Made by a program: the position numbers and the translations under genes
DNA from: Planctomycetaceae bacterium
Lineage (GTDB): Bacteria; Planctomycetota; UBA1135; GCA-002686595
DNA length: 64,000 nt
Reading direction: 5' to 3'
NCBI GenBank assembly: GCA_011525785.1
Contig: WYBT01000063.1
Span: forward strand, 1-64,000
Notes under the pieces: model-generated
The model's input: the letters and a program-made list of their open reading frames with translations, nothing else
Databases searched by the model: none
Told to the model about the DNA's origin: nothing
Part shown: positions 26,771 to 46,102 of the stretch, one piece after another
How the letters are laid out: the number at the start of each line of letters is the position of its first letter
How positions within the stretch are numbered: the stretch's first letter is position 1

Positions 26771-26896
26771 TGAACCTACAGCACGAGCACCCTTCCGATG
26801 AACCTACGGCACGAGCACCCTTCCGATGAACCTACGGCACGAGCACCCTTCCGATGAACCTACGGCACGAGCACCCTTCCGATGAACCTATAGCAC
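26771..26896. repeat. 28-bp tandem repeat, four full copies plus a partial one
   Basis: Full copies start at 26771, 26799, 26827 and 26855; copy 1 differs from the rest at one base. A degenerate fifth copy covers 26883-26896, and the end of a further copy may lie at 26762-26770. Every unit ends ...CTTCCGA and the next begins TGAACCTA, so an ATG is rebuilt at each junction (26798, 26826, 26854). Because 28 is not a multiple of 3, these ATGs fall in different frames. The units are contiguous with no spacers. Confidence 0.9.
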
Positions 26897-28320
26897 AGCG
26901 AGCGAATCGAGTGCTTCGCGCGTCGCTGTCGTACTTGGCGGTCGCTGCATTCCTAGTGTCGAACAATCACGCGTTGGCGCAGAGCGCCGTGTGCAACCAT
27001 CAGACTCGCCAACTGACCACGGCCGGCGGTATCTCCTCAACTTCGACATCATGTCCCACATGGTCGATCACCGTATCGATCCCTCCCGCCGTCAGTGGAA
27101 CGTACACGAGCCCTCCGCAATGTGATAGCGGCAGAACAGTTCGCTCCTCCGATTGCTTCGACTGCGGCACTCCGTCGAACAACAATCACTGCAAGGCACG
27201 CGGGTTCCAGGTCAATGTCAAGGTGTACGGCGTCGGGGGGGGCAATCCGTGCCCCGACGTTCCCAGCTCGCTGCCAACGACAGTGGCGCAGCTGAATGCC
27301 GTTCTTGCATGCAAGGACTTGCCCTTGGTCTCGGATACCAATGTTTGGTGTGCAACGGTGACGACCTGCACCGATGGAAAAGTTGTCCCTGGCTGGGAGG
27401 ACTTCGAGCAACGCACCATGGCTGACGGCGCAGCAACCGTTCGCCTCGGCGCTCCCGACCAACTGCTCGGCGGCCCGCGCGTGCGTCCGTTTGCGGCCGA
27501 ACTCGCCGCGGCGCAGAGCCTGCCGCTTTCGGCGCTCCATCCTGCGATCAGCGCCGTGTGGAGCTTCCATCCGCCGCTTGAGGGCGGCGTGGAGTTCGTC
27601 GCCAATGTCCAGCGCACCTTCGAGAACGTGTCCGGGTACGGAACGGTTATGAATCGGCACGACGTCGCCGGAGTTGCGCTTTCGGGCGGTCGCTTCTCGC
27701 TGACCGACACGCGGCGAGTTCAAGGCGAGGACCAGTCGCCTGAGTTGCTCACCGAAGAGCTCGCCTACGACGGCGGGAATTTCTTCCGCGGCGTCGTGGG
27801 CGCGCCGTTCTACGACGCGTATTCATCAGAGAGCGCGGCCATCGATCCCGCCATGGCGGGCCTGGGCTTCGTCGAGCCGCTGCTCGCCTGGGTTGACTCG
27901 CCGCACGCGATCCTGCGCTTTCCGGGCACGACCTACGCCGAAGAGACCGTCGCGGGTTCGAACGGCGCGCGCCTGCGAGTGCTGGAGACCTATCCGGGAG
28001 TTCCCCTCGAACTGGACAAAGGCCAGACCCTGTACGAGATCGAGCTCGTCGACGGTGTCGCGCACGTGACGCGCATCGCCATCAGCAACTCACAGGGCGA
28101 TTTGCTCGTCGAGCGCCTGTATTCCGACTATCGCACCTTGAGCCAAGACCTGTGGCGCGCGTTCCAGTTCACCGAGCGGCGCTTCAACGCTGGTTCGACG
28201 ACGCCCTACGTGAGTACGACAGTCTCGATCCGACGCGCGCGCGCGCTCGAACCCGCCGCGGCCAGCGCGGCCTGGCGCCGCCCGAAGTCGGAGCACGACT
28301 GGTGGTTCGTCCGCACTTGA
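26854..28320 (+). CDS. Secreted Cys-rich hypothetical protein
   Basis: The ATG at 26854 lies inside the tandem repeat and gives 488 residues; a GTG at 26911 would give a cleaner signal peptide (VLRASLSYLAVAAFLVSNNHALA, cleavage after ALA). The first ~130 mature residues are Cys-rich (CNHQTRQL, CDSGRTV, CFDC, CPDV, CKDL, CATVTTCTDG), compatible with disulphides. The rest is beta-rich, with no family I recognise. A/T content is somewhat higher at the N-terminal end than in neighbouring genes. It is probably exported; function is unknown. Confidence 0.7.
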   Translation: MNLRHEHPSDEPIAQRANRVLRASLSYLAVAAFLVSNNHALAQSAVCNHQTRQLTTAGGISSTSTSCPTWSITVSIPPAVSGTYTSPPQCDSGRTVRSSDCFDCGTPSNNNHCKARGFQVNVKVYGVGGGNPCPDVPSSLPTTVAQLNAVLACKDLPLVSDTNVWCATVTTCTDGKVVPGWEDFEQRTMADGAATVRLGAPDQLLGGPRVRPFAAELAAAQSLPLSALHPAISAVWSFHPPLEGGVEFVANVQRTFENVSGYGTVMNRHDVAGVALSGGRFSLTDTRRVQGEDQSPELLTEELAYDGGNFFRGVVGAPFYDAYSSESAAIDPAMAGLGFVEPLLAWVDSPHAILRFPGTTYAEETVAGSNGARLRVLETYPGVPLELDKGQTLYEIELVDGVAHVTRIAISNSQGDLLVERLYSDYRTLSQDLWRAFQFTERRFNAGSTTPYVSTTVSIRRARALEPAAASAAWRRPKSEHDWWFVRT

Positions 28321-30275: not shown

Positions 30276-30285
30276 CTGCATGCCG

Positions 30286-31281
30286 ATGACGCAGACCTCT
30301 TCACGTCAACTGCTCGAACAGCGCCTGGCGCGCGCCCGCGAGGTGATCCAAGTCGAAGCGCGCACCATCGCAGGGCTCGAGCAGGCGCTCGACGAGCGCT
30401 TCGGTCAGGCCCTCGACCTGCTGCTCGCCTGCCAGGGCAAGGTGGTCGTCACCGGCATGGGCAAGGCCGGGCTGATCGGGCAGAAGATCTCCGCCACGCT
30501 GGCCTCCACGGGAACCGATTCGCTGTTCCTGCACCCGGCCGAAGCGCTGCACGGCGATCTGGGCCGCATCCGCGCGGGAGACGTTCTCCTGGCGCTCTCG
30601 AACTCGGGCGAGACGAGCGAGGTCAAGCTCGTGGTCCCCGTGGCGCGCAAAATCGGCGCGCGCGTGATCGTGATGACCGGCGACGGCGCGTCCACGCTCG
30701 CGCGCCTGGCGGATTGCGTGCTGGACATCGGCAAGGTCGACGAGGCCTGCCCGCTGGGCCTCGCGCCGACGGCCAGCACTTCGGCGCTGCTCGCCATGGG
30801 CGATGCGCTGGCGATGGTGCTGCTGTCCGAGCGCAACTTCCAACGCGCCGACTTCGCGCTCTACCACCCGGCGGGTTCGCTGGGCCGCAAGCTCCTGCGC
30901 GTCGGCGAAGTCATGCGCCGCAACGTCGAGTTGCCGCTCGTGCGCCACAACGAGTCGCTCGCCGCGGCCCTGCGCGCGATGGGGCACACTCCGGGCAAGC
31001 CCGGCGCAACTCTGGTGGTCGACGACCAGGGCCTGCTGGTCGGGATCTTCACCGACGGCGACCTGCGCCGTCTGGTCGAGCAGCACGGCGCCGTCGACCG
31101 CGAGGCGCGCATCGAGCGCTACATGACCGCGAACCCCAAGTTCGTGCTCGCCGAGCAGTTGCTCGAAGAGGCCGAACGCGTGCTGCGCGCCCACCGCGTC
31201 GACCAGATCCCGGTGCTGGACTCCGAGCGCCGCCCCGTCGGCCTGCTCGACGTGCAAGACATCCTCGACACGCGGCTGTAG
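30286..31281 (+). CDS. kdsD: Arabinose-5-phosphate isomerase
   Basis: ATG 30286 (or 30280, two codons earlier) gives about 331 residues. A SIS domain (VVVTGMGKAGLIGQKISATLASTGT, ALSNSGETSEVKLV, MTGDGAST, LAPTASTSALLAMGDALA) is followed by two CBS domains (VGEVMRRNVELPLV..., IERYMTANPKFVLA...DQIPVLD). It converts ribulose-5-phosphate to arabinose-5-phosphate, the first committed step to Kdo for lipopolysaccharide. kdsC and an Lpt-like gene follow on the same strand, as in the kdsD-kdsC-lptC order of enterobacteria. Confidence 0.92.
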   Translation: MTQTSSRQLLEQRLARAREVIQVEARTIAGLEQALDERFGQALDLLLACQGKVVVTGMGKAGLIGQKISATLASTGTDSLFLHPAEALHGDLGRIRAGDVLLALSNSGETSEVKLVVPVARKIGARVIVMTGDGASTLARLADCVLDIGKVDEACPLGLAPTASTSALLAMGDALAMVLLSERNFQRADFALYHPAGSLGRKLLRVGEVMRRNVELPLVRHNESLAAALRAMGHTPGKPGATLVVDDQGLLVGIFTDGDLRRLVEQHGAVDREARIERYMTANPKFVLAEQLLEEAERVLRAHRVDQIPVLDSERRPVGLLDVQDILDTRL

Positions 31282-31380
31282 GCGCGGGAGCAGCGCCGAG
31301 CGCGTGGCCGTCATGGCCACGGACGCGAAATCGTGTTTGCGGAACCGATTCGCGCTGCCTCGACATCGGGAGCAACGAAC

Positions 31381-31388
31381 AAGGAGGA
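31381..31388 (+). promoter_or_regulatory. Strong ribosome binding site deciding the start at 31393
   Basis: AAGGAGGA lies 4 nt before ATG 31393, one of the few full Shine-Dalgarno sites in the window. It excludes the in-frame start 60 bp further up. Confidence 0.75.
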
Positions 31389-31392
31389 TTCC

Positions 31393-32619
31393 ATGCTCGT
31401 TCGCTTCACGCTGCTCTCGTCGCTCACCCTGGCTCTGCTCTCGTCGGCCGCGCGCTCACAGCTCGGCGCCGTACACGTGGTCGTGGAGGGAATGGACCTC
31501 CAGGCCGCCGTGGATGCCGCCCAGAGCGGCGACACCCTGCTGATCTACCCCGGCGTCTATCCCAGCGGCGCCGTGATCGACGGCAAGAGCCTGACCTTGG
31601 CGGCGGAGGGCTCGGTTCCCCCGCTGCTGCTGCACGGCGTGCAAGTCGCCAATCTCGCCGCCAGCGGGCAGGTGGTCCTGTCGGGACTGCAGGTCCAGGG
31701 CGAGCCCTGGACGGGCGCCGGTTCGGGCAATGCGCTCAGCGTGAGCAACTCCGCCGGGGCTGTGCGAGTCGACCGCTGCCAATTCCTGGGACGTGAACGC
31801 GGCCATGGGGCGACCTTGATCGGCGCGCTGAGCTTCGCCGCGACGGACAGCGTCTTTCGCGGAGGGAACGCCGCCGTGTGGGCCCCGGTTGCGCCCGGCA
31901 GCGGGCTGTGGTCGAGCGGCAGTTGGGTCGCGCTCTATCAGAGCCAGTTGCGCGGCGCGAGCGGGCTCGAGCCCACGACGATCGCCGACGGGCAACCGGG
32001 CGCCGACGGCGGCGTGATCTCAGGCGGCCTCCTGCACTTCGCCGAGTCGACCTTCCGCGGCGGCGACGGCGGCTCGGCCTTCGGCACTTGCATGTTCGGT
32101 GGGAACGGCGGCGACGGGTTGGTGGTCCAGACGCCGTCGAACGCCCGCGCGATCGCGTCGACCTTCGTGCGCGGCGATGGCGGCGCCGGCGGCGGCTGCT
32201 TCTGCACGCTGTGCGTGCAGGGCAACAAGGGAACCAACCTGGTGGGGCCCGTTCAGCTGCTCGCGGGGCCCACCACCGAGCTCGAACTGCCGCGCGTCGC
32301 TCGCGAGGCGACCGTTGTGAACGTGACTGTCATGACGCAACCGGGCGCCCAGGGATTCCTGCTGGCTTCGCAGCAGCCCGCGCACGCTCTCGACGCCGCG
32401 TACAACGGGCCGCTTCTGCTGAAGGGCCCCTTCGAAGTGCGCACGAGCACCGGTCCAATTCCCTCGGGCTCGACCACGATCTCCCTGACGCTGCCTTCGC
32501 TTCCGGCCGGCGTGCAGTCGCAGACCTGGTTCGTGCAGACGATCGTTCGCGCGCCCGGCGGCGGCGGCGCCTTCGCAGGCGAATGCCGTCCGCTGGTCAT
32601 CGTCGACGACGCGTTCTGA
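31393..32619 (+). CDS. Secreted parallel beta-helix protein
   Basis: This 408-residue protein has a signal peptide (MLVRFTLLSSLTLALLSSAARSQ). The body repeats short Gly/Ser-rich strands (MDLQAAVDAAQSGDTLLIYPGVYPSGAVIDGKSLTLAAEG) typical of right-handed parallel beta-helices with pectin-lyase-like coils, and the DTLLIYPGVY pattern is common in planctomycete proteins of this kind. The C-terminal ~100 residues form a separate beta module. No catalytic motif is clear. It sits between kdsD and kdsC, an unusual insertion in an otherwise envelope-biosynthesis cluster, and has its own ribosome site. Confidence 0.75.
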   Translation: MLVRFTLLSSLTLALLSSAARSQLGAVHVVVEGMDLQAAVDAAQSGDTLLIYPGVYPSGAVIDGKSLTLAAEGSVPPLLLHGVQVANLAASGQVVLSGLQVQGEPWTGAGSGNALSVSNSAGAVRVDRCQFLGRERGHGATLIGALSFAATDSVFRGGNAAVWAPVAPGSGLWSSGSWVALYQSQLRGASGLEPTTIADGQPGADGGVISGGLLHFAESTFRGGDGGSAFGTCMFGGNGGDGLVVQTPSNARAIASTFVRGDGGAGGGCFCTLCVQGNKGTNLVGPVQLLAGPTTELELPRVAREATVVNVTVMTQPGAQGFLLASQQPAHALDAAYNGPLLLKGPFEVRTSTGPIPSGSTTISLTLPSLPAGVQSQTWFVQTIVRAPGGGGAFAGECRPLVIVDDAF

Positions 32620-32679: not shown

Positions 32680-33219
32680 ATGGAGGAGCCGGCGCTGGAG
32701 CCGCGCTTGGCCGCAGTGTTGCGGCCGATTCGGCTGGTCGCATTGGACGTCGATGGCACGCTGACCGACGGCGGCATCTTCGTGTCCGCAACGGGCGAGC
32801 ACCTGCGCTTCGACGTGCGCGACGGGCTGGGCATCGTCGAGCTGTTGCGCGCCGGGGTCGCGATGGCCTGGATCACCGGGCGCAGTTCGCCGGCCGCGGC
32901 CGAACGCGCTCGCGTGCTGGGCGTGCGCGAGCTGCACCTGGGCGTGAAGGACAAGGCCAGCGTGCTGCGCGAGGTGTGTGTGCGGCTGGGCGTCTCGGCG
33001 CACGAGACGCTCGCCATGGGCGACGATTGGCCCGACCTCGGGCTGCGCGCCGCGGCGGGCTGCTTCATCGCGCCGGCCGACGCCGCTCCGCAGGTGCGCG
33101 CGCACGCCGATCACGTCACGCAGGCCCGCGGCGGGCACGGCGCAGTGCGCGAGGCGATCGAGCTCGTCCTGCGCGCCCAGGACAAGTGGCATGGCGTGCT
33201 CGACGCGCACCGTGGCTGA
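32680..33219 (+). CDS. kdsC: 3-deoxy-D-manno-octulosonate 8-phosphate phosphatase
   Basis: This 179-residue HAD-type phosphatase has the nucleophile motif LDVDGTLTDGG near residue 20 (the DGTLTDG wording is specific to the KdsC group). It also has FDVRDGLGIVELLRAGV, the Thr motif ITGRSS, the Lys in GVKDKASVL and the Asp pair in MGDDWPDL. ARGGHGAVREAIELVL at the end is also typical of KdsC. It removes phosphate from Kdo-8-phosphate. It is followed 27 bp later by the Lpt-like gene. Confidence 0.93.
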   Translation: MEEPALEPRLAAVLRPIRLVALDVDGTLTDGGIFVSATGEHLRFDVRDGLGIVELLRAGVAMAWITGRSSPAAAERARVLGVRELHLGVKDKASVLREVCVRLGVSAHETLAMGDDWPDLGLRAAAGCFIAPADAAPQVRAHADHVTQARGGHGAVREAIELVLRAQDKWHGVLDAHRG

Positions 33220-33246: not shown

Positions 33247-36200
33247 ATGAAGCGCGTCGGCTACTTCCTCGCGCTGGTGCTCCTGGGAGCGCTCGTGCTG
33301 TGGTGGATCGATCGCCGCACCACGCGACCGCCTCCCACCGGCGGCGGCGGCGAAGCTCCCACGCCCGTCGCGCCCGCGCCGGCGCAGCAGGGCGAGCTGA
33401 CCACCATCGAGACCGGCGACGACAAGCGCGGTCAGTTCTCGCACTCAGGGCCCTTCGAGTTGTTCCTCAAGGACCTCGAGCAAGCGGACCAACCGCTGTG
33501 GCTGCACGTGAAGTCGCGCGACTCGCGCACGCTCGAGGACGGCTCGATCGACCTGCTGGAAGTCGAGTTCGAGCGCTACGACGACACCACGCGCGAGCTG
33601 ACCGTCGACGGACGCGCCGGCCGTGCGCGCGCGCGCCTGACCGGCCTGGGCGCGCTGGACCGCGCGACGCCGATCGAAGTGCGCGACGCGGACTTGCGGC
33701 ACATCTCGTCGTCGCGCTTCTCGCCCTTGCGCTTCCAGGCGCCGCACCTGCAGCTCGACATCGACAAGCAGTTCGCCCTCAGCGACGAGATGGTGTCGAT
33801 CATCGGAACGAGCTTCACCGGCAGCGGGCGCGGAATGACGGTCGACGGGATTGCGCAGGTGCTCACGTTGCGCAGCGAGACGCGCGCGCGGCTGGAGCTG
33901 GACGGCGGCGGCGAGGCGCTGCTGCTTGGGCGCGGGGCGCTGGTCGCCCGTTCGCGTCCCGACCTGGAGGAACGCCTGGGCAAGGACGTCGTGTCGATCG
34001 AGCTCGAGGGCGGCGCCAGCTTGGACGTGCGCGCCGAGCTCCCGCTGCAAGTCGACGCGCAGTCGCTGGTGCTATACGGCCGCATCGATCAACAGCGCTC
34101 GAGCTTCACGGCGCTGTACGCCGAGGCCAGTCGCGAGGTGATCGTGCGCTCGCGCGCCGACGGGACGTTCCGCAGCGAGCGGCTGGTGCTCGACTTCGAC
34201 CCGCGCGGTCGCCCGCTGCGTGCAACCTTCGACGGCGAGCCGCGTCTGGATCTGGCCCTGCGTGAACGCGCGCTGGCCAGCGTGCCGCGCGAGCTGCTGG
34301 TCGAAGGCGAACAACTGACCGTGCGCGGCGAAGGCGCGGGGCCGCTCGAGCTGTTCTTCGGCGAACAGGAGCGCTTCGAGTTCAACGGGCCGGCGAAGAT
34401 GACCTTGCCGGCGCTGGGCACGGAGTTGAGCTGCCGCACGCGCTTCGAAGGCCGCGTCGCGCCCAACGGCAGCCTCAGCGAGCTCATCGCGCTCGGCGAA
34501 GTGCGCGCCAACCACGCCGAGTGGACCGTTTCGAGCGAGCGCATCGCGGTCGAGACCCTGCGCGATGTGAACGGTCGCGACGCTGCACGCTTGAGCGCGC
34601 CCGAACGCGCCACGCTCAGCGGTCGGACCGCCGAGCTGGACGACGTCGCGCTCAGCTCGGGTTCGGGCCTGGTGGTCGACCTCGACCGCGAACGCATCGT
34701 GGTCCGCGAGGCGCGCAACATCACGCTCGAGCAGCAGCGCGCAGGCGTGCGGACGTACTGGGCGCGCGCCGACGAGCTGTACGAGCTCGATCCGCGGCAG
34801 TTGAGCTTCCTGGCGGGCGGCGACGTGCGCTTCGAAGGCCCGCAAGGCGCCGGCCGCGGCGAGCGGCTCGAGGCCTGGGCCATCGATCGCGCGGAGCTCG
34901 CCGGCAGCCCGCAAGCGCCCGCGCGCCTGGTGGTGAGCGACAACGGGCGCGTGTGGGGCGCGTTCGATGCGCTGTTCATCGAGGCGCAAGGACAGCTCGT
35001 GCACGCGCGCGGCGACGCGCACGCCGGCGTCGACCTCGACGGCCTGGGCTACCAGCTCGACGCGCCCTGGATCGTCATCGCGCAACGCGGGGCGAGCGAG
35101 CAGCCCGACCTCGCGCCCGACTTGCAGGTCGACGCTGGCGGCGGGGTTCGCGCGCGCGTTGTCCGCGACGAAGACGAGCTCGAGCTGTACGGCGAGCGCT
35201 TCCACGCGCGCGCCGACCTCGTGCGCGATGCGCAGGAGCGCGAGCGCTTCGAGCCCAGCTTGTCGACCGTCACGGGCGACGTGCGCTTCATTCACCGTGG
35301 ACGCCTCGAGATGGGCGGCGCCGGCGAGCGCTTGGAGCTGCGCGCCGATCGCTCCGCGCGACTGACGCCGGCGGCGGGCGAGAAGGTGCGTCTGGCGGGT
35401 CGACTGCCGCAGAGCACTGCGACCGTCGAAATGCTCGCTGCGCAGGCCGACTTCTCGCCCGAGCGCATCACCGCGCTCAGCGTCGAGGCCGACATCGACG
35501 GCCTGGCGCTCGGCCCGAGCAGCTCGAAGCTCCCGCCGGACGCGCGCAAGGTGCGCGTCGTCGCGGGCGCGCTCGACTGCGACGAACGCTCGATCGTCCT
35601 GAGCGACAGCGTCTACATCGGCGGCAAGACCGAGCTGCTCGAGGCCTGGGACGTCGACTGCGGCGCGGCGCTGATCCGTTTGGAAGAGCAGCCCGCGAGC
35701 GATGTGCGCGAGTCGTTGAACGAGCTGGTGGCCTGGGGCGGCTTCCAATTGCGCATGTCGTCGATGGGCGGCGCGCGCGGCTCGGTGCTCGAGATTTCAG
35801 GCCGCAAGCAACTGCTCACGATCACCGGCGACGCGTCGAGCGACGACAGCGGGCTCGCGGTGCTCGAACGCGGCGAGACGATCTGGTCGGCGCCGCGCAT
35901 CGAACTCCAGCTCGACACCGGCTATCTGCGCTCGGACAACGCGATCGTGCGGCCGCTCGCACTGGACGCGCGCGACAGTTGGTCGCTCACGTACGAAGCG
36001 CTCGAGCCGCTGCCGGCCGGCGACGACACGATCCAGATCTTCCGCAATCCCATCTGGCGCTCCGGCGAAGCCGAAGTGCGCGCAGCCTGGGCGCTGGCCT
36101 GGGTCGACTCGGCCAAGTGGCGCATGATGGGCCGCAAGTCGTCGTCGCTCACCGACGACCCAGACTTGCAGTCGCAGGAGCGACGGCGCCGCTTCTTCGG

Positions 36201-38319
36201 CCGCGTCGACATGAGCCAGGTGCAGGACTGGCTGCACGAGATCTACCTCGACGGCGAAGTCGAGCAGCGCACGAACGGCGAGACGCAGTTGCGCGCCGCG
36301 GGCGTGTACATGGACCTGGTCGACGGACACGGCTGGGTGGTGGACGCCGTGCTCGACTTCGACCTGCCGATCGGCGGGAGGAGCTACAAGCTCAAGCTGC
36401 AGGCCGACTGGCTGCGCCACTCGCTCGATGGCTCGATGGAGTCGCGCAACGCCGTCGCGACCACCTGCGCGCACGACGAGCCGCACTACGTGATCCGCAT
36501 CGGCAAGTTCTCGCGCACGCCGCGGATGGTCGAGAGCATCGTCAAGGACCCCAAGACCGGCGTGGAGCGCACGGTCGAGAAGCTCGACGGCTTCGATGTC
36601 GCGTTGGAGGACAACGCGATCGACTTCTTCGGGCCCGTCGCGCTGCCGCTGCCGCGCATCGCGGGCCGCCAGGACAAGAACAGCAAGTTCGACGAGGAGT
36701 CGCTCTCGGTCGGCTCGATTGCGCTGCCGTCCTTCGGCCAGGACTCCAAACTCGGCACGTTCATCTCGGCCAACTTCACGACCGACATCGGGCCGATCGT
36801 CAAGGGCTTCCACTGGCTGCTCAACCGGCTGTTCTCGGGGAAGATCGCGCTGCCCAAGCCCGAGGGCAACACGCGCACGCACGCCGACCTCAACTCGCGC
36901 GGCCTGATCCTCGGCGTGGAGAGCACCTTCCAGGCCAAGGGGCACTACCGCTGGTCGGTGATCTTCGACGCGATCTACGACACCAAGCAGGACCGCGGCC
37001 TGGTGCGCGTCGACGAGAACGATCGCAGTGAAGGTCGCGCGTGGCTGCGTTCGCGGGGGCGCTACCTGCTCGGAACCGACGAGTGGATCGACGTGATCGT
37101 CACGCGCCAGAGCGATCCGGGCGTGCAGGCGGAGTTCTTCGAGAACGAGTACCTGCGCTTCGAAGAGCGCGAGACGCTGGTCCACTGGCGCAGCGCGGTC
37201 GACGAGCGCTACACCAGCGCCACGGCCGAGGCGCGGCTCGAAGACTTCCGCAGCGAGGTCGTCGACCAGCCGAGCGTGAACATCTTCAAGGGCCGCACGA
37301 GCGTCGGCTCGCTGGGGCCGCTCTCGATCGTGCAGAGCTCCTTGCTCACGCTCTCCAACCGCGCGCGCTTCGAAGGCGACCCGCGCTACAACGAGCGGCC
37401 GTTCGCCGACGGGCTGGGCGAGCGCGAGGTGCTGCGCGTCGACGGGCTCACTCGCTACGAGGCGCCGTGGACCGCGGGCAACTCTGGCGTGCGCTTGACG
37501 CCCTTCGTCGAAGGTCGCGCCACGGGTTGGAGCGAGAACGCGGCGCAGGACGATCGCGCGGCGCGCGTGGCGATGATCGCGGGCTTGCAGGCCTCGACCA
37601 CGTTCTGGAAGCGCTTCGACTCGGGCAGCTGGCACGTGTGGACGCCGACCGTCGGCTACCGCGGCGATCTCGCGCACTTCGACGGCGGCGAGAGCGTGGC
37701 GCGCTTCGACGCGGCCGACACGCCCATCGAGGGGCGCTACCTCGATCTGGCGCTGCGCTCGCGCTGGGAGCACCGCGAGCTGCGCAGCGACCTCGACGTC
37801 GAGGTGGTGCAGACCCACGCGCAGAGCCTGGCGCCGGGCGAGGACGAGGGCTGGCAGCCGATCCTCACGCGCTCGACCTGGCTCTCGCGGCTGGCGGGCA
37901 TGCCCTTCGGCGTCTCGCACGACGCGCGCTACGACCTCGCGAGCGGCGAGACCGACTACTCGCGCACGTTGGTGGGCTTCGAGCCGACTCCGGGCCTGGA
38001 CCTCGAGGTCGGCTACCACCGCGGCCGCGATTTGACCGGAGTCGAGCTGTACGACGCCGCCTCGGTCGGCGCGCGCTACCAGTTCACGCGCAAGTGGGAA
38101 GTCGAGGGACGTCAGACCTTCTCCGCGCGCGACTCCGGAGACAGCCTGGCGTACTCCGTCACGCTGCGCCGCATGGGCCACGACTTCGTGTTCGAGCTCG
38201 AGAACTCGGTGGTGGCGGGTGAAGGCCGTTCCTCGCTGCGCTTCAAATTCACGCCGCTGTTCGCCTGGCGCAGCGCTTCGCCCTCGCTGCTCGACCGGTG
38301 GCGCAACACGCGCCAGTGA
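33247..38319 (+). CDS. Giant LPS-transport protein: LptC-, LptA- and LptD-like regions in one chain
   Basis: This 1690-residue protein starts with one membrane anchor (YFLALVLLGALVLWWI), then an LptC-like periplasmic part. A very long run of OstA/LptA-type strands follows (residues ~60-1040, with repeated LE.....L.G.V patterns). Near residue 1075, NAVATTCAHDEPHYVIRIGK recalls the LptD 'TTC....PxW.l.A' element, and IDFFGPVALPLPRI its 'gvPvfY.Py' element. The last ~500 residues are a beta-barrel (LTRYEAPWTAGNSGVRLTPFVE, YSRTLVGFEPTPGLDLEVGY, WEVEGRQTFSARD). E. coli makes LptC, LptA and LptD as separate proteins. An inner-membrane anchor and an outer-membrane barrel in one chain would form a covalent bridge. 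The kdsD-kdsC context supports the assignment. Confidence 0.7.
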   Translation: MKRVGYFLALVLLGALVLWWIDRRTTRPPPTGGGGEAPTPVAPAPAQQGELTTIETGDDKRGQFSHSGPFELFLKDLEQADQPLWLHVKSRDSRTLEDGSIDLLEVEFERYDDTTRELTVDGRAGRARARLTGLGALDRATPIEVRDADLRHISSSRFSPLRFQAPHLQLDIDKQFALSDEMVSIIGTSFTGSGRGMTVDGIAQVLTLRSETRARLELDGGGEALLLGRGALVARSRPDLEERLGKDVVSIELEGGASLDVRAELPLQVDAQSLVLYGRIDQQRSSFTALYAEASREVIVRSRADGTFRSERLVLDFDPRGRPLRATFDGEPRLDLALRERALASVPRELLVEGEQLTVRGEGAGPLELFFGEQERFEFNGPAKMTLPALGTELSCRTRFEGRVAPNGSLSELIALGEVRANHAEWTVSSERIAVETLRDVNGRDAARLSAPERATLSGRTAELDDVALSSGSGLVVDLDRERIVVREARNITLEQQRAGVRTYWARADELYELDPRQLSFLAGGDVRFEGPQGAGRGERLEAWAIDRAELAGSPQAPARLVVSDNGRVWGAFDALFIEAQGQLVHARGDAHAGVDLDGLGYQLDAPWIVIAQRGASEQPDLAPDLQVDAGGGVRARVVRDEDELELYGERFHARADLVRDAQERERFEPSLSTVTGDVRFIHRGRLEMGGAGERLELRADRSARLTPAAGEKVRLAGRLPQSTATVEMLAAQADFSPERITALSVEADIDGLALGPSSSKLPPDARKVRVVAGALDCDERSIVLSDSVYIGGKTELLEAWDVDCGAALIRLEEQPASDVRESLNELVAWGGFQLRMSSMGGARGSVLEISGRKQLLTITGDASSDDSGLAVLERGETIWSAPRIELQLDTGYLRSDNAIVRPLALDARDSWSLTYEALEPLPAGDDTIQIFRNPIWRSGEAEVRAAWALAWVDSAKWRMMGRKSSSLTDDPDLQSQERRRRFFGRVDMSQVQDWLHEIYLDGEVEQRTNGETQLRAAGVYMDLVDGHGWVVDAVLDFDLPIGGRSYKLKLQADWLRHSLDGSMESRNAVATTCAHDEPHYVIRIGKFSRTPRMVESIVKDPKTGVERTVEKLDGFDVALEDNAIDFFGPVALPLPRIAGRQDKNSKFDEESLSVGSIALPSFGQDSKLGTFISANFTTDIGPIVKGFHWLLNRLFSGKIALPKPEGNTRTHADLNSRGLILGVESTFQAKGHYRWSVIFDAIYDTKQDRGLVRVDENDRSEGRAWLRSRGRYLLGTDEWIDVIVTRQSDPGVQAEFFENEYLRFEERETLVHWRSAVDERYTSATAEARLEDFRSEVVDQPSVNIFKGRTSVGSLGPLSIVQSSLLTLSNRARFEGDPRYNERPFADGLGEREVLRVDGLTRYEAPWTAGNSGVRLTPFVEGRATGWSENAAQDDRAARVAMIAGLQASTTFWKRFDSGSWHVWTPTVGYRGDLAHFDGGESVARFDAADTPIEGRYLDLALRSRWEHRELRSDLDVEVVQTHAQSLAPGEDEGWQPILTRSTWLSRLAGMPFGVSHDARYDLASGETDYSRTLVGFEPTPGLDLEVGYHRGRDLTGVELYDAASVGARYQFTRKWEVEGRQTFSARDSGDSLAYSVTLRRMGHDFVFELENSVVAGEGRSSLRFKFTPLFAWRSASPSLLDRWRNTRQ

Positions 38320-38353: not shown

Positions 38354-38746
38354 GTGGAGCTGTTCGGAATCTCGCCGCAGGAGCTGATCGTCGTCGCCGT
38401 CGTGGCGGTGATCGTGTTCGGCCAGCGCCTGCCGCAAGTGGCCGGCGAGGCGGCCGCGACGGTGCAGAAGCTCAAGCGCGCGCTGAACGATCTGCGGCGC
38501 GAGTCCGGCATCGACAACGAGATCCGCAACGCGCGCCGCGAGATCGAGACCAACGTGGTGCGGCCGCTGCGCGAGGTCGACGTCGCCGGAACCGTGCGGC
38601 GCGAAGTGCGCACAGCCGAGTCGGAGATCCAGGGCGCGCTCGCGACTCCGGCTTCGTCGCCGAGCGCGCCGCCCGTTGCTGCCGCTGACGCTACGCCGCC
38701 GGCGCCGGCTGAGCCCCAGGCGCCTCGGGATCCGAATCCAGGTTGA
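38354..38746 (+). CDS. tatA: Sec-independent translocase protein TatA/TatB
   Basis: GTG 38354 gives 130 residues: VELFGISPQELIVVAVVAVIVFG, QRLPQ, then an amphipathic helix (AATVQKLKRALNDLRRES). The FG-x-LP hinge after the single membrane helix is diagnostic of TatA/TatB. The Pro/Ala-rich tail is long. It forms the Tat export pore or its receptor side; TatA versus TatB cannot be settled by eye. The last ~56 bp overlap the convergent GspE-N gene. Confidence 0.85.
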   Translation: MELFGISPQELIVVAVVAVIVFGQRLPQVAGEAAATVQKLKRALNDLRRESGIDNEIRNARREIETNVVRPLREVDVAGTVRREVRTAESEIQGALATPASSPSAPPVAAADATPPAPAEPQAPRDPNPG

Positions 38747-39383
38747 GCAGCACGTTGGCGTCGCCCTCGTCGAAGATGTTCTTCCAGTCGAGGGCCTGGT
38801 CGCCGCCCGCCGCTGTCGGCGCTTCAGCGGGCAGATGCTCGGCCAGCCACTTGTTGTTGCCGTTGACCGTTCCAACCACGGGCATCACGTGCACGTCGGC
38901 GGTGGACGCCAACAGGCCCAGCACATCCGCGGGCACGAGCGCCGGCATGCAGATGGTGAGAACGCGTTTGTGGCGCGACAGCGGAGCGAGCCGGTGCTGC
39001 CGCAGGAAGTCGTGGTCGAGGCCCGCGAGCGCGTCCTTGCTGGGCGTGTAAAAGTCCACCGGCAGGAAGGCGAGGCCGTAGATCTCGCACACCACGCGCG
39101 AGAGGTCCCAGTCGCCGATCAACCCGTCCGCCACCAGCGCCTCGGTGAAGGGGATCGGACCGTGCAGCGAGGACTGGAGCGTGAGCTTGAGCCGCTGTGG
39201 ATCGACCAGACCCTTCTGGCCGAGCACCTCGGCCAAGCTGGCGTAGTCGAGTCGATGGCTGTTCTTCAAGGCGCGAATCCCAGGAGGTTCGGGCTGTATC
39301 GGACCCGCACCTCCCAGGACTGAAACCTCGCGTCGGGCGCTCGCAAGCGATTCCCCGAGCCGCCCCCAGTCGCCGCGCGCCAC
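38691..39383 (-). CDS. Stand-alone GspE N-terminal (MshEN-like) domain protein
   Basis: This 230-residue protein contains the type II secretion GspE-N pattern: LAEVLGQKGLVDPQRLKLTLQ, FTEALVADGLIGDWDLSRVVCEIYGLAFL, and LDHDFLRQHRLAPLSRHKRVLTICM. No ATPase domain follows; it ends in an acidic tail. Such domains bind nucleotides (c-di-GMP in some MshEN members) or a secretion partner. It starts 12 bp after gyrB and is probably co-transcribed with it. The role is unknown. Confidence 0.7.
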   Translation of the reverse strand: MARGDWGRLGESLASARREVSVLGGAGPIQPEPPGIRALKNSHRLDYASLAEVLGQKGLVDPQRLKLTLQSSLHGPIPFTEALVADGLIGDWDLSRVVCEIYGLAFLPVDFYTPSKDALAGLDHDFLRQHRLAPLSRHKRVLTICMPALVPADVLGLLASTADVHVMPVVGTVNGNNKWLAEHLPAEAPTAAGGDQALDWKNIFDEGDANVLLNLDSDPEAPGAQPAPAA

Positions 39384-39395
39384 TGCGCGCCGCGC

Positions 39396-41834
<2,439 letters not shown>

Positions 41835-42194
41835 TCAGCGTTCCAATCGGAATTCGACTCGTTGAATGCGTTCGCCGCCCAAGCGGCGATTGGCGGCGGC
41901 TCGATAGCCCTCGCCGGTGAAGCTCTTGAGTTCCTGGAGGTGCGCGGCGGACTTCACGTGCACCTCGAGAACGCCGTTCTCGAAGCGCACGGAGCGCGCC
42001 CGCGAGGCCATCGCAGGTCCGACCGCGTCGCGCCAGGCCTGGTGCACGCGCGCGTTCGAAAATTGGCGTTCCAGGCCGGACGAGCGCAGGTAGGCGCCGA
42101 GCACGTTGCGCAGCGAAGCCACTCCGCCGCGCTCTTTGCCCTGGGCTCGACCTCGCTCGCTTCCGGCTCGTTCGCTCACGCTCAGGTCAACCAT
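41835..42194 (-). CDS. dciA: DciA (DUF721) helicase-loading protein
   Basis: This 119-residue protein matches DUF721 (LRNVLGAYLRSSGLERQFSNARVHQAWRDAVGPAMASRARSVRFENGVLEVHV). DciA loads the replicative helicase DnaB in bacteria that lack DnaC/DnaI. Its place between dnaN and gyrB is a frequent arrangement. The start overlaps the dnaN stop by 8 bp. Confidence 0.85.
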   Translation of the reverse strand: MVDLSVSERAGSERGRAQGKERGGVASLRNVLGAYLRSSGLERQFSNARVHQAWRDAVGPAMASRARSVRFENGVLEVHVKSAAHLQELKSFTGEGYRAAANRRLGGERIQRVEFRLER

Positions 42195-43296
42195 CCACCG
42201 TGATCGGCATCACGATGTAGACGTAGTTCTCTCCCAGGATGAACTTGCCCGGGGAGGTCTTCTCGTTGAACTCGAGCCGGACGTGTCCGCTCTCGCAGTT
42301 CTTCAGCCCGTCCGCCACGTAGTCGGGGTTGAAGGCGATCTCCGCTGCGGCGCCCTTGAACTCGACGTCCATGTGCGCGCGCGCCGCGCCGCGGCCCGCC
42401 GACTGTCCGGTGAGCTCGAGACGGCCGGGGCTGAGGCTGAAGCGCACGGCGCGCGCTTCTTCGCCGGTGACGTTCGCCACCAGGCGGATCTTGCGCTCGA
42501 GCACCTGGGCCTCGGCTTCGCAGAAGTTGCGGCTCTCGGCCGGAATGACCGCCGAGTAGCGCGGGAAGTCGCCGTCGAGCAGACGCGCGAAGACCTCGGC
42601 ATTGCGTGTGCGCACGCCGATCTGTCCTTCGGCGAAGTGCAGCTTGACCGAGTCGAGCGCATCGGACATCACGCGGCAGAACAGCTGCATGCCCTTGGTC
42701 GGCACGATGCACGGGCGGCTGGGGCCGCTGCGACCTTGCGTGTCGATCGGCGAGTGCGCCAGCGCCAGGCGTCGTCCGTCGGTTGCGACCATGCGCAACA
42801 GGCTGTCGGCCACTTCGATCAGCACGCCGTGCATCGCGTAGCGGCCTTGCTCGCGCGCGGCGGCGAAGGCCGTGCGCCCGACCAGCGAGGTGAACGTTCC
42901 CGCTTGGAGGGTGAACGCGCCCTCTTCCTCGAAGCGCGACACGACCGGGAATTCCTCGGCGTCGGCGGTCACCAGCTCGCAGTCGTCGTCGCCGCAGCGG
43001 ATCTCGCACGTCGAGCCGCGCACTTCGATCTCGACCGTCTCGCCGGCGAGGTCGCGCACGAAGTCGTGCAGCACGCGCGCGGGCACCACCACGGTTCCCG
43101 GCTCGAGCACCTTGACGCCTTCGTCGATGGCGTAGCGGACGGAGACTTCCAGATCGGTTCCGACCAGCTCCAGGCGCTCGGCCGTCGCCACCATGCAGAC
43201 GTTGGTGAGGATCGGCTTGGGGCTCTTGGAGGGGATGACGTTGTTGGCGACAGCCAACCCTTCGCGCAGCTTCTCGCGCTCGCAGAGGACTTTCAT
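42187..43296 (-). CDS. dnaN: DNA polymerase III beta clamp
   Basis: This 369-residue protein begins MKVLCEREKLREGLAVANNVIPSKSPKPILTNVCM, the standard DnaN opening, and carries TVVVPARVLHDFVRDL and HSPIDTQGRSGPSRPCIVPTKGM. The end is LGENYVYIVMPITVDG; the usual ending is PVR, here shifted to ITVDG. It forms the sliding clamp. It is separated from dnaA by the candidate origin. Confidence 0.95.
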   Translation of the reverse strand: MKVLCEREKLREGLAVANNVIPSKSPKPILTNVCMVATAERLELVGTDLEVSVRYAIDEGVKVLEPGTVVVPARVLHDFVRDLAGETVEIEVRGSTCEIRCGDDDCELVTADAEEFPVVSRFEEEGAFTLQAGTFTSLVGRTAFAAAREQGRYAMHGVLIEVADSLLRMVATDGRRLALAHSPIDTQGRSGPSRPCIVPTKGMQLFCRVMSDALDSVKLHFAEGQIGVRTRNAEVFARLLDGDFPRYSAVIPAESRNFCEAEAQVLERKIRLVANVTGEEARAVRFSLSPGRLELTGQSAGRGAARAHMDVEFKGAAAEIAFNPDYVADGLKNCESGHVRLEFNEKTSPGKFILGENYVYIVMPITVDG

Positions 43297-43324
43297 GCGT
43301 GGATGGTGGGCAGGTGGAACAGGG

Positions 43325-43683
43325 TGTGGACGGCTCGCGTGCGGACGCGTGCTGCGCCGGAGTGCTGCCTGCTCAGCGTTGGCTGGCAGCGCGTCGCGGC
43401 GGTGTGGGGATTGAGGCTTGTGGATCGTTGATCAGAAGAAAGATCTTCATCTTCTCAGAGACCCCCGCCGAACGTTAGGAAGGCTGCGTCCGGAAAGCTC
43501 AAACCACGCGAGCGCAACAGGATACGCGCGAGGAGCGCTGTGGGGAAACACGGCTTGGCACGGTGGAGAGCCGGTGGAGTTCGCCCCGCTTGTGCACAGC
43601 CCTCCACAGACCCTCGGAGGCGCGTGGGAAGCGCGTCGAGTTGTGCACGGAAGCTGCAGGCGCTTTCCCCAAGGTTGTCCACG
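43325..43683. other. oriC: Candidate replication origin between dnaA and dnaN
   Basis: Eight DnaA-box-like 9-mers fall in 360 bp: TGTGGACGG (43325), TGTGGGGAT (43403), TGTGGATCG (43419), TGTGGGGAA (43539), TTGTGCACA (43590), CCCTCCACA (43600), TTGTGCACG (43641) and TTGTCCACG (43675). None is a perfect TTATCCACA, as is common in GC-rich genomes. An AT-richer patch at 43426-43460 (GTTGATCAGAAGAAAGATCTTC...) could be the unwinding element. The rest of the 43297-43954 gap has no gene; a structured stretch at 43763-43805 may be the dnaA terminator. Confidence 0.6.
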
Positions 43684-43954
43684 GCGTTGACGGGTTGGAA
43701 GCGGGCTCAGCGAGGGTGTCGGAGAGAGGGAGGAGGCGCGCGACGCGGCCAGTTGCGGTCGCGTTTCGAACCCAGGTGCATCGCTCGAACGATGGGTTTC
43801 GAGAACGTCGTCGGACGTGTCGCGCGTTCGTCGACGTCGGTCCTCAGCCAGGCTCAGGCGCGCAGTGCGCTGCGAGCCGAGCGGTGCGCTACGGCGCCGG
43901 CGTGGCGATGCGACCCAACGCTGTGGCCGCGTGGCCGCGCAGCGCGACGTGAAG

Positions 43955-45700
43955 TCAGCGCTGGAGCTGCGCGAGCAGGCCCTGGACCGTGCCGCGGAAG
44001 CGCTCGTCCGCGCGCATCTGCTTGTCGATCTGCTCCACGGCGTACAGCACGGTCGTGTGGTCGCGGCCGCCGAAGAAACCGCCGACCTCTTCGAGCGAGT
44101 GGCGGGTGATCGAGCGCGCCAGATACATGGCCACTTGGCGCGGGAACGCGATGGCCTTGGTGCGCCGGCGCGACTGCAGCTCGGTGACCTTGACCTGGAA
44201 GTGCGTGGTGACGACGCGCAGCACGTCGTCCATGGTCGGCTGGCCCTTGGGCTGCGTGAAGATGTCGCGCAGGAGGCGCCGCACCAGCTCGGGCGTGATC
44301 TCCTGGTGGTTGAGGCCGGCGTAGCTGATCAGGCGGTTCACGGCGCCTTCGAGCTCGCGGATGTTGGACTCGATGTGCTCGGCCAGCAGTTGGGCGACCT
44401 GCTCGGGCAATTCGTGGCCGCGCTCCCGGCTCTTGCGCTTCAAGATCGCCATGCGCGTCTCGTAGCAGGGCGTCTCGATCTCGGTGACCAGGCCCCACTT
44501 GAAGCGCGACACCAGCCGCTCCTGGAGCGTCGGGATCTCCTTGGGCGGGGAATCCGACGAGAGCACGATCTGCTTGCCGGCGTTGTAGAGCGTGTTGAAG
44601 GTGTGGAAGAACTCTTCCTGCGTGCGCTCCTTGTTCGCCAGCAGATGGATGTCGTCCACGACCAGCAGGTCGACGTTGCGGTACTTGGTGCGGAACTTGT
44701 GCAGGTCGCCGTTCTCGAGCGCGCTGATGAAGTGGTTGATGAACGTCTCGCACGAGAGGTACAGGATCCGCACCCCCGGCGAGCGATCGAGCAGCGAGTA
44801 GCACAGCGACTGCAGCAGGTGCGTCTTGCCGAGGCCGACGCTGCCGTGCAGGAAGAACGGGTTGTAGGACTTGCCCGGCGACTCCGACACGCCGACTGCC
44901 GCCGCGTAGGCGAAGCGGTTGCAGGGCCCGACGACGAAGTTGTCGAAGCGGTAGTTGGGGTTGAGCGTGACGTCCGAGCTCCACATCAGCCCGTTGTCAC
45001 TGCTGGCGCCGTTCCAGCGCGCGGAGTCGGCGTTCGAGCGCGCCGGCGCGACCTCGTTCACGCTCACCGCACCGGAGCGACGCGCCAGCCCGTCGGCTTC
45101 CGCGCCTTGGGCGGACCCGGCGCCTGAGTTCGCCGCACCCGCAGCATCGGCGGCCGTCGTCGCAGTCGGGTTCCCGGCCTCGTCCGTGCGCTGGCGGGGC
45201 GCGACCGTCAGTTCCGCGTCGACGATCAGTTCCACCGGGCAGGCCACGCCGAGCACGTCCTGAACGGCCTGTTCGAGCGCGCTGCGGTAGTTGGAGCGCA
45301 GCCAGTCGGCGGCGAAGGAGTTCTGCACCGCGATGCGCACCACGTCGGGCCCGGCGCGGCGCAGATCGGCGCGCCGGAACCAAGTCTCGAACTGCTCGCG
45401 CCGGATGCGGCGGCGGAGGGCCGCCTGGATGGCGCGCCAGCGCTCGCCGAGCTCTTCACCGGCCTGCGCGTCGGTCGCTGCGGGTGCGTCGAGTTCCGTC
45501 TCGCGCGTCGCCGCGTCCAGGTCGGACGGCGGACGGGGCATGAGCAGTTCGGCGGGCGCCGCAGCCGCGAGTTCGGCCGAAATGCCGGCTGCCGACGAAG
45601 CCGCCGCCAATGACGCCGTCGCTGCGAGCGGACGCGTGGCGTCGGAGGCCTCGAGGGCCTGGCTGGCGCCGACAGCGCCTCCGACTTGTTCCGACTGCAT
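43955..45700 (-). CDS. dnaA: Chromosomal replication initiator DnaA
   Basis: ATG 45700 gives 581 residues; the frame is open to 45886, but the extra part is low-complexity and reads through a DnaA-box-like site in the leader. Domain I is near residues 85-155 (RWRAIQAALRRRIRREQFETWFRRADL). A low-complexity domain II and the AAA+ domain (GSVGLGKTHLLQSL, LLVVDDIHLLANKERTQEEFF) follow. Domain IV carries the DnaA signature GGRDHTTVLYAVEQI. It binds DnaA boxes and opens the origin. The N-terminus before domain I is an unusual Ala-rich stretch of ~80 residues. Confidence 0.95.
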   Translation of the reverse strand: MQSEQVGGAVGASQALEASDATRPLAATASLAAASSAAGISAELAAAAPAELLMPRPPSDLDAATRETELDAPAATDAQAGEELGERWRAIQAALRRRIRREQFETWFRRADLRRAGPDVVRIAVQNSFAADWLRSNYRSALEQAVQDVLGVACPVELIVDAELTVAPRQRTDEAGNPTATTAADAAGAANSGAGSAQGAEADGLARRSGAVSVNEVAPARSNADSARWNGASSDNGLMWSSDVTLNPNYRFDNFVVGPCNRFAYAAAVGVSESPGKSYNPFFLHGSVGLGKTHLLQSLCYSLLDRSPGVRILYLSCETFINHFISALENGDLHKFRTKYRNVDLLVVDDIHLLANKERTQEEFFHTFNTLYNAGKQIVLSSDSPPKEIPTLQERLVSRFKWGLVTEIETPCYETRMAILKRKSRERGHELPEQVAQLLAEHIESNIRELEGAVNRLISYAGLNHQEITPELVRRLLRDIFTQPKGQPTMDDVLRVVTTHFQVKVTELQSRRRTKAIAFPRQVAMYLARSITRHSLEEVGGFFGGRDHTTVLYAVEQIDKQMRADERFRGTVQGLLAQLQR

Positions 45701-46102
45701 GGTCCGCCTCACTCCCCTGCTGACAACCGACCTGTCCACACCGAGCACCAGGACATCCCCCACCCGGACGTCCCGCTCGCTTCGACCCGCTCCGCCGCTT
45801 CCCGAGCGGTCTGCCCGGGCGCTGTCTGCAGCGCCCTCGCCAGTTGCCGCGCGGCTTCGACCCCGGGAGGGTGGAAGCGGCGGCATTTAGGCGACAACTT
45901 GAGTCCTAGTTCCCTCGTTGCGGGCATCGACTGGCGGGGAGAACGGCGTCGGTGTGGAGTCGGAAGCGACACCCGCGGGGACCGTCGAACTCGGAGCTGG
46001 CGGACCAGCGCTCGAGGCGCGTCGCGGTTCGAAAACGAGGGCGCATTCCAAGCGCACCCTCCGGGGCTGTCAACACGCATCCCGCGACTCTTGACTGGCA
46101 CT
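45701..46102. other. dnaA upstream region with a DnaA-box-like site
   Basis: No separate gene is supported in this 400-bp gap. CTGTCCACA at 45732-45740 (TGTGGACAG on the dnaA strand) lies about 32 bp before the dnaA start and may allow autoregulation. A further near-consensus box, ATATCCACA, lies at 46161-46169 inside the 3' end of the next gene. Confidence 0.45.

Follow-up and report, generated by a model that had tools for sequence, protein, structure and literature searches.

In Escherichia coli, the Lpt system (LptB2FG-C, LptA and LptD-LptE) spreads the path from the inner to the outer membrane over three proteins, LptC, LptA and LptD, and the length of the bridge is set by the number of LptA units. 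LptD can contact LptA only after an LptE-dependent disulfide rearrangement, and a 2014 review of this system listed as open how many LptA units make up the bridge and whether it is permanent or transient (PMC3944529). The elongated MlaD of Veillonella parvula carries an inner-membrane anchor and a C-terminal outer-membrane beta-barrel in one chain and forms a trans-envelope lipid bridge, with an MCE domain and helical tube, a predicted hexameric state, a 10-strand barrel and a role in phospholipid traffic (PMC10665443). We claim no homology to this protein, which by analogy offers a precedent for an inner-membrane-anchored chain that ends in an outer-membrane barrel. Within the same phylum as our locus, Speth et al. 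(2012) reported members of the LptD family in other planctomycete lineages and mentioned neither LptC, LptA nor a fusion (PMC3422733). We found no report of a natural LptC-LptA-LptD fusion in the open-access literature searched.

Here, we describe a planctomycete gene in which the counterparts of the three E. coli proteins form one chain, so that bridge length is set by the gene. It lies in a stretch of 64,000 nucleotides (the window) from a draft genome (6.8 Mb in 63 contigs, 90.7% complete). KdsD- and KdsC-like genes precede it, as kdsD and kdsC precede lptC in E. coli, and a TatA-like gene follows.

30280-31281, + strand: KdsD-like arabinose-5-phosphate isomerase of the Kdo pathway, upstream neighbour (TIGR00393, E 1e-86)
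32680-33219, + strand: KdsC-like Kdo-8-phosphate phosphatase, upstream of the fused gene at a distance of 27 bp (E 5e-35 to TIGR01670, which exceeds the cut-off)
33247-38319, + strand: fused lptC-lptA-lptD-like gene, an intact open reading frame of 1690 aa with 42 complete fused homologues

Several other reading frames surround these genes. A species-specific 428-aa frame with a weak NosD-like repeat match (31333-32619) sits between kdsD and kdsC and is missing from the corresponding place in a same-genus genome (L068). Further upstream, a 488-aa frame with a hydrophobic N-terminus (26854-28320) matched nothing in NCBIfam and lacked a homologue at the related loci compared. A short frame on the minus strand (38694-39383) matches the N-terminal part of PilB only and occurs as a stand-alone domain beside tatA across much of the order. 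Genes named from sequence as gyrB-like, dnaN-like and dnaA-like lie near the fused gene at 39396-45886, an arrangement common to many relatives.

The fused gene comprises 1690 codons from its ATG, with no internal stop and no N bases, and its GC3 is 0.89-0.97 along the whole length. A homologue from the same genus, 65% identical to the window protein, is also fused. Between these two, the differences at codon positions 1, 2 and 3 over residues 860-940 are 0.21, 0.14 and 0.33, and therefore the join between the LptA- and LptD-like parts is coding and in frame.

To characterize the N-terminal half, residues 1-905 were modelled with AF2 from 31 aligned relatives (mean pLDDT 87.3). The model shows a helix, a floppy linker to residue ~47 and then ~60 strands in an unbroken stack, giving a continuous beta jelly-roll structure over residues ~48-904.

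33250-33318, + strand: inner-membrane anchor helix, residues 2-24 (AF2 helix, hydropathy; conserved in fused and split relatives)
33388-34113, + strand: LptC-like jelly roll, residues ~48-289 (VIA-align with LptC 6mit_C, Z 13.8, 2.7 Å over 149 residues)
33724-33897, + strand: LptC profile match PF06835, residues 160-217 (E 2e-5, above the curated cut-off)
33808-35958, + strand: LptA-like stacked jelly-roll bridge, residues ~188-904 (AF2 beta stack with pLDDT 87, LptA matches, PF03968 in homologues)

Residues 2-24 are the sole strongly hydrophobic segment of the chain, with the conserved form M-K/R-x-LLxFLLLFGxGLxxL and no cleavage motif evident by eye. Together with the jelly roll that matches both the LptC profile and the LptC structure, they give the arrangement expected of LptC. 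LptA (2r19) aligned best with residues 188-340 (VIA-align, Z 14.6, 1.8 Å over 124 residues) and a second time with residues 388-526. The segment thus has the LptA fold; it is internal to one chain and not a separate soluble periplasmic protein, so we speak of an LptA-like part and not of an LptA protein. Among the 31 homologues, the LptC-profile domain was detected in 10 and the LptA-type domain PF03968 in 4. LptC was the sole Pfam match of the window protein itself, which matched neither PF03968 nor PF04453. Used as a single query, it found nothing in the PDB by phmmer and nothing in a scan of genome contigs; profiles built from relatives were needed.

The C-terminal half was modelled over residues 500-1690 from 46 relatives (mean pLDDT 86.6). 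Here the jelly roll continues through the join and is followed by the LptD jelly roll and then by a barrel in which we counted 26 strands, the order of domains found in LptD.

35968-36651, + strand: LptD N-terminal jelly roll, residues ~908-1135 (alignment of full-length LptD 4q35 with model positions 409-1186, that is, residues 908-1685)
36460-36468, + strand: TTC motif, residues 1072-1074 (conserved in nearly all of 46 homologues)
36709-38301, + strand: LptD-like 26-strand outer-membrane barrel, residues ~1155-1685 (AF2, 5iv8_C, profile against LptD in the PDB)

By VIA-align, the barrel superimposed on LptD 5iv8_C with Z 22.2 (3.8 Å over 466 residues), and full-length LptD 4q35 on residues 908-1685 with Z 21.9 over 637 residues. 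In the structure comparisons of the two models, LptA, LptC and full-length LptD came out well ahead of other folds. In a Foldseek search with the model of the C-terminal part, the top 35 matches were all LptD (best E 2.9e-25), and a family profile of this part found the solved LptD structures 5iv8 (E 1e-6), 7omm and 5ixm. PF04453 matched 4 of the 46 homologues; since the window protein is not among its matches, it is the family profile and the structural matches that support homology to LptD. The conserved T-T/S-C motif aligns in a profile alignment with the T-C of gonococcal LptD. Its cysteine, Cys 1074, is the only one in the LptD part, in place of the four that form two interdomain disulfides.

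These results agree with the first-pass annotation, which had been made from the letters of the sequence and had proposed LptC-, LptA- and LptD-like parts fused in a single 1690-residue protein behind kdsD and kdsC. Each part is now confirmed by profile or structure: the anchor at the start of the chain as the predicted helix 2-24, the very long OstA-like beta region as the jelly-roll stack with its LptA and LptC matches, and the C-terminal barrel as a 26-strand structure that matches LptD at Z ~22. Profile searches place LptC in the chain itself; in its relatives they detect both LptD and LptA-type domains. The parts of the chain follow the same order from the inner to the outer membrane as in E. 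coli Lpt.

The remainder of the source genome contains adjacent LptF and LptG, a clear LptB (331 bits), and LpxC and BamA near each other on one contig. It holds one LptD-like locus and one LptC match. Profile searches of this 90.7% complete assembly revealed neither another LptD-like gene nor a separate LptA-type domain or LptC, and so no second Lpt set of the kind that would have spoken against the single-molecule reading; the profile of the N-terminal part found nothing besides the fused gene except a weak anchor-type match. A search for LptE with PF04390 gave no match. LptE is short and divergent, and its gene may be divergent or absent here. With one cysteine in the LptD part, the protein differs from E. 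coli in having no disulfide checkpoint of that type.

At the fusion junction of the window's clade, strand joins strand with neither a spacer nor a signal peptide, as seen both in the alignment and in the AF2 model.

35914-35982, + strand: fusion junction, residues ~890-912 (junction alignment, hydropathy; AF2 pLDDT ~74-92 across the join)

Another fused clade (L041-L044 and kin) carries a Pro/Ser/Glu/Gly-rich spacer at the same join, which suggests that this clade either fused separately or has a linker that can be cut.

We next consider the relatives. At least 42 complete fused homologues were found in separate genomes, all within one Planctomycetota family. On the tree, which was rooted on the split families, the window's family is represented by 63 loci, 52 fused and 11 split; Pla86 and Pla163, both complete genomes, are among the split members. 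The fused copies all come from draft genomes, mostly MAGs, and both complete genomes seen are split. Other families of this order carry, one after another, kdsD, kdsC, genes for an anchored protein of ~800-1000 aa and an LptD of ~770-880 aa, and tatA. This two-gene form shares with the fused one its gene order, homologous sequence, N-terminal anchor and LptD part, and differs in being encoded by two genes and in an LptD with its own signal peptide; most of the separate LptD proteins begin with a hydrophobic segment resembling one. The length from the anchor to the LptD part is 907 ± 40 residues (range 833-1007).

In a survey of 244 genomes of the phylum for LptC, reading frames longer than 1400 aa occurred in the window's family alone; the profile matched just 51 of the 244, which leaves room for fusions in other lineages. 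The matches often lay in frames of 650-1100 aa and not of ~190 aa (for example G260, G249 and G135), so that proteins combining LptC- and LptA-like parts seem to be common across the phylum. Because the unfused form exists in related lineages, the long LptC/A-like protein predates the fusion, with the joining of LptD as the new step, and the split relatives represent the state before it. On this comparison of sequences, a two-gene operon, with the anchored LptC/A-like protein followed by a signal-peptide-bearing LptD, gave rise to the fused gene, and the signal peptide of the separate LptD was lost. The fusion probably occurred once or twice: the best tree needs two changes, and a test with a reduced tree did not reject a single origin (AU p 0.217). 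A second event would fit the two junction types, without a spacer in the window's clade and with one in L041-L044 and kin.

Taken together, the locus very probably encodes a single-chain transport bridge for lipopolysaccharide, or a related Kdo-lipid A, that arose by fusion of a two-gene operon. The analysis shows the gene, its domain order, the fold predictions, the homology, the fusion origin and the other Lpt, Lpx and BAM genes; we infer a chain that stays uncut, a barrel inserted while tethered, a Kdo-lipid A cargo and its transport. Like LptC, the chain would keep its N-terminal helix in the inner membrane next to LptB2FG, and lipid would enter the first jelly roll and be pushed along one continuous groove. 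The ~850-residue jelly-roll stack would take the place of LptC and a set number of LptA units and provide a continuous hydrophobic slide through the periplasm. The last strands of the stack would lead straight into the LptD jelly roll and the 26-strand barrel, which BAM would insert and through which the lipid would be released to the outer leaflet. Textbook geometry gives roughly 4.8 Å per strand in two sheets; from the models, we estimate that ~60 strands and the LptD jelly roll would span some 18-20 nm, on the order of a Gram-negative periplasm. The docking checkpoint of E. coli LptD cannot work in the same way here because of the covalent join, the one cysteine in the LptD part and the lack of a detected LptE, and maturation of the E. 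coli LptDE type presumably cannot apply unchanged. We see a somewhat better than even chance that the bridge is intact, permanent and covalent, with a length set by the gene to match the periplasm, the LptE- and disulfide-gated LptA-LptD checkpoint lost, and the barrel inserted by BAM while the N-terminus is held in the inner membrane.

One chain might instead be made and then cleaved in the periplasm at a site close to the junction. This would release LptD from the anchored LptC/A-like protein, and the fusion would only secure 1:1 synthesis. The linker kept at the join in one fused clade (L042-L044 and kin) would suit such processing, which we infer would ease delivery to BAM. We nevertheless consider cutting unlikely, as the join in the window's clade has no linker or signal peptide and is modelled with good confidence as continuous strands. 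It is more doubtful still that a single-chain bridge carries another surface lipid or glycolipid in place of Kdo-lipid A lipopolysaccharide. The sequence does not reveal the cargo, and to our knowledge the envelope lipids of Planctomycetota have been little studied; however, LpxC is present in the genome and the fused gene follows the KdsD- and KdsC-like genes. AsmA/TamB chains are likewise inner-membrane-anchored long beta grooves, but such a lipid-bridge chain, or an unrelated long beta protein, has a negligible probability here and was rejected: no AsmA or TamB Pfam match appeared up to E 10, LptC was the only Pfam match, homologues match LptD, LptC and LptA-type profiles, the alignment of the C-terminal part to LptD reaches Z ~22 and takes in the barrel, and an AsmA-like structure lacking a jelly-roll bridge or barrel, named in the first-pass annotation as a refuting case, did not appear, since the models show both. 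An assembly chimera or frameshift joining two real genes, which the draft and mostly MAG origin of every fused copy could suggest, is equally negligible and was rejected, given 42 complete fused frames from separate genomes that cluster on the tree, a continuous coding pattern, and a signal peptide removed with no slip of frame.

In conclusion, our analysis supports the reading in the first-pass annotation of a covalent Lpt bridge created by gene fusion. In this family of uncultured Planctomycetota, the LptC-type anchor, the bridge and the LptD pore are encoded as one chain, so that one protein may link both membranes. Relatives already have the long LptC/A-like protein in unfused form, and its joining to LptD is what is new. 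Structural studies could use the fused protein as a single polypeptide. It may also act as a ruler for the width of the periplasm, and it allows one to ask whether BAM is able to insert a barrel while the chain is tethered to the inner membrane. Being covalent, such a natural fusion fixes the stoichiometry and length of the bridge and cannot undock; if the chain is uncut, the comparison with E. coli would strongly indicate that a slide which is continuous and permanent is enough.
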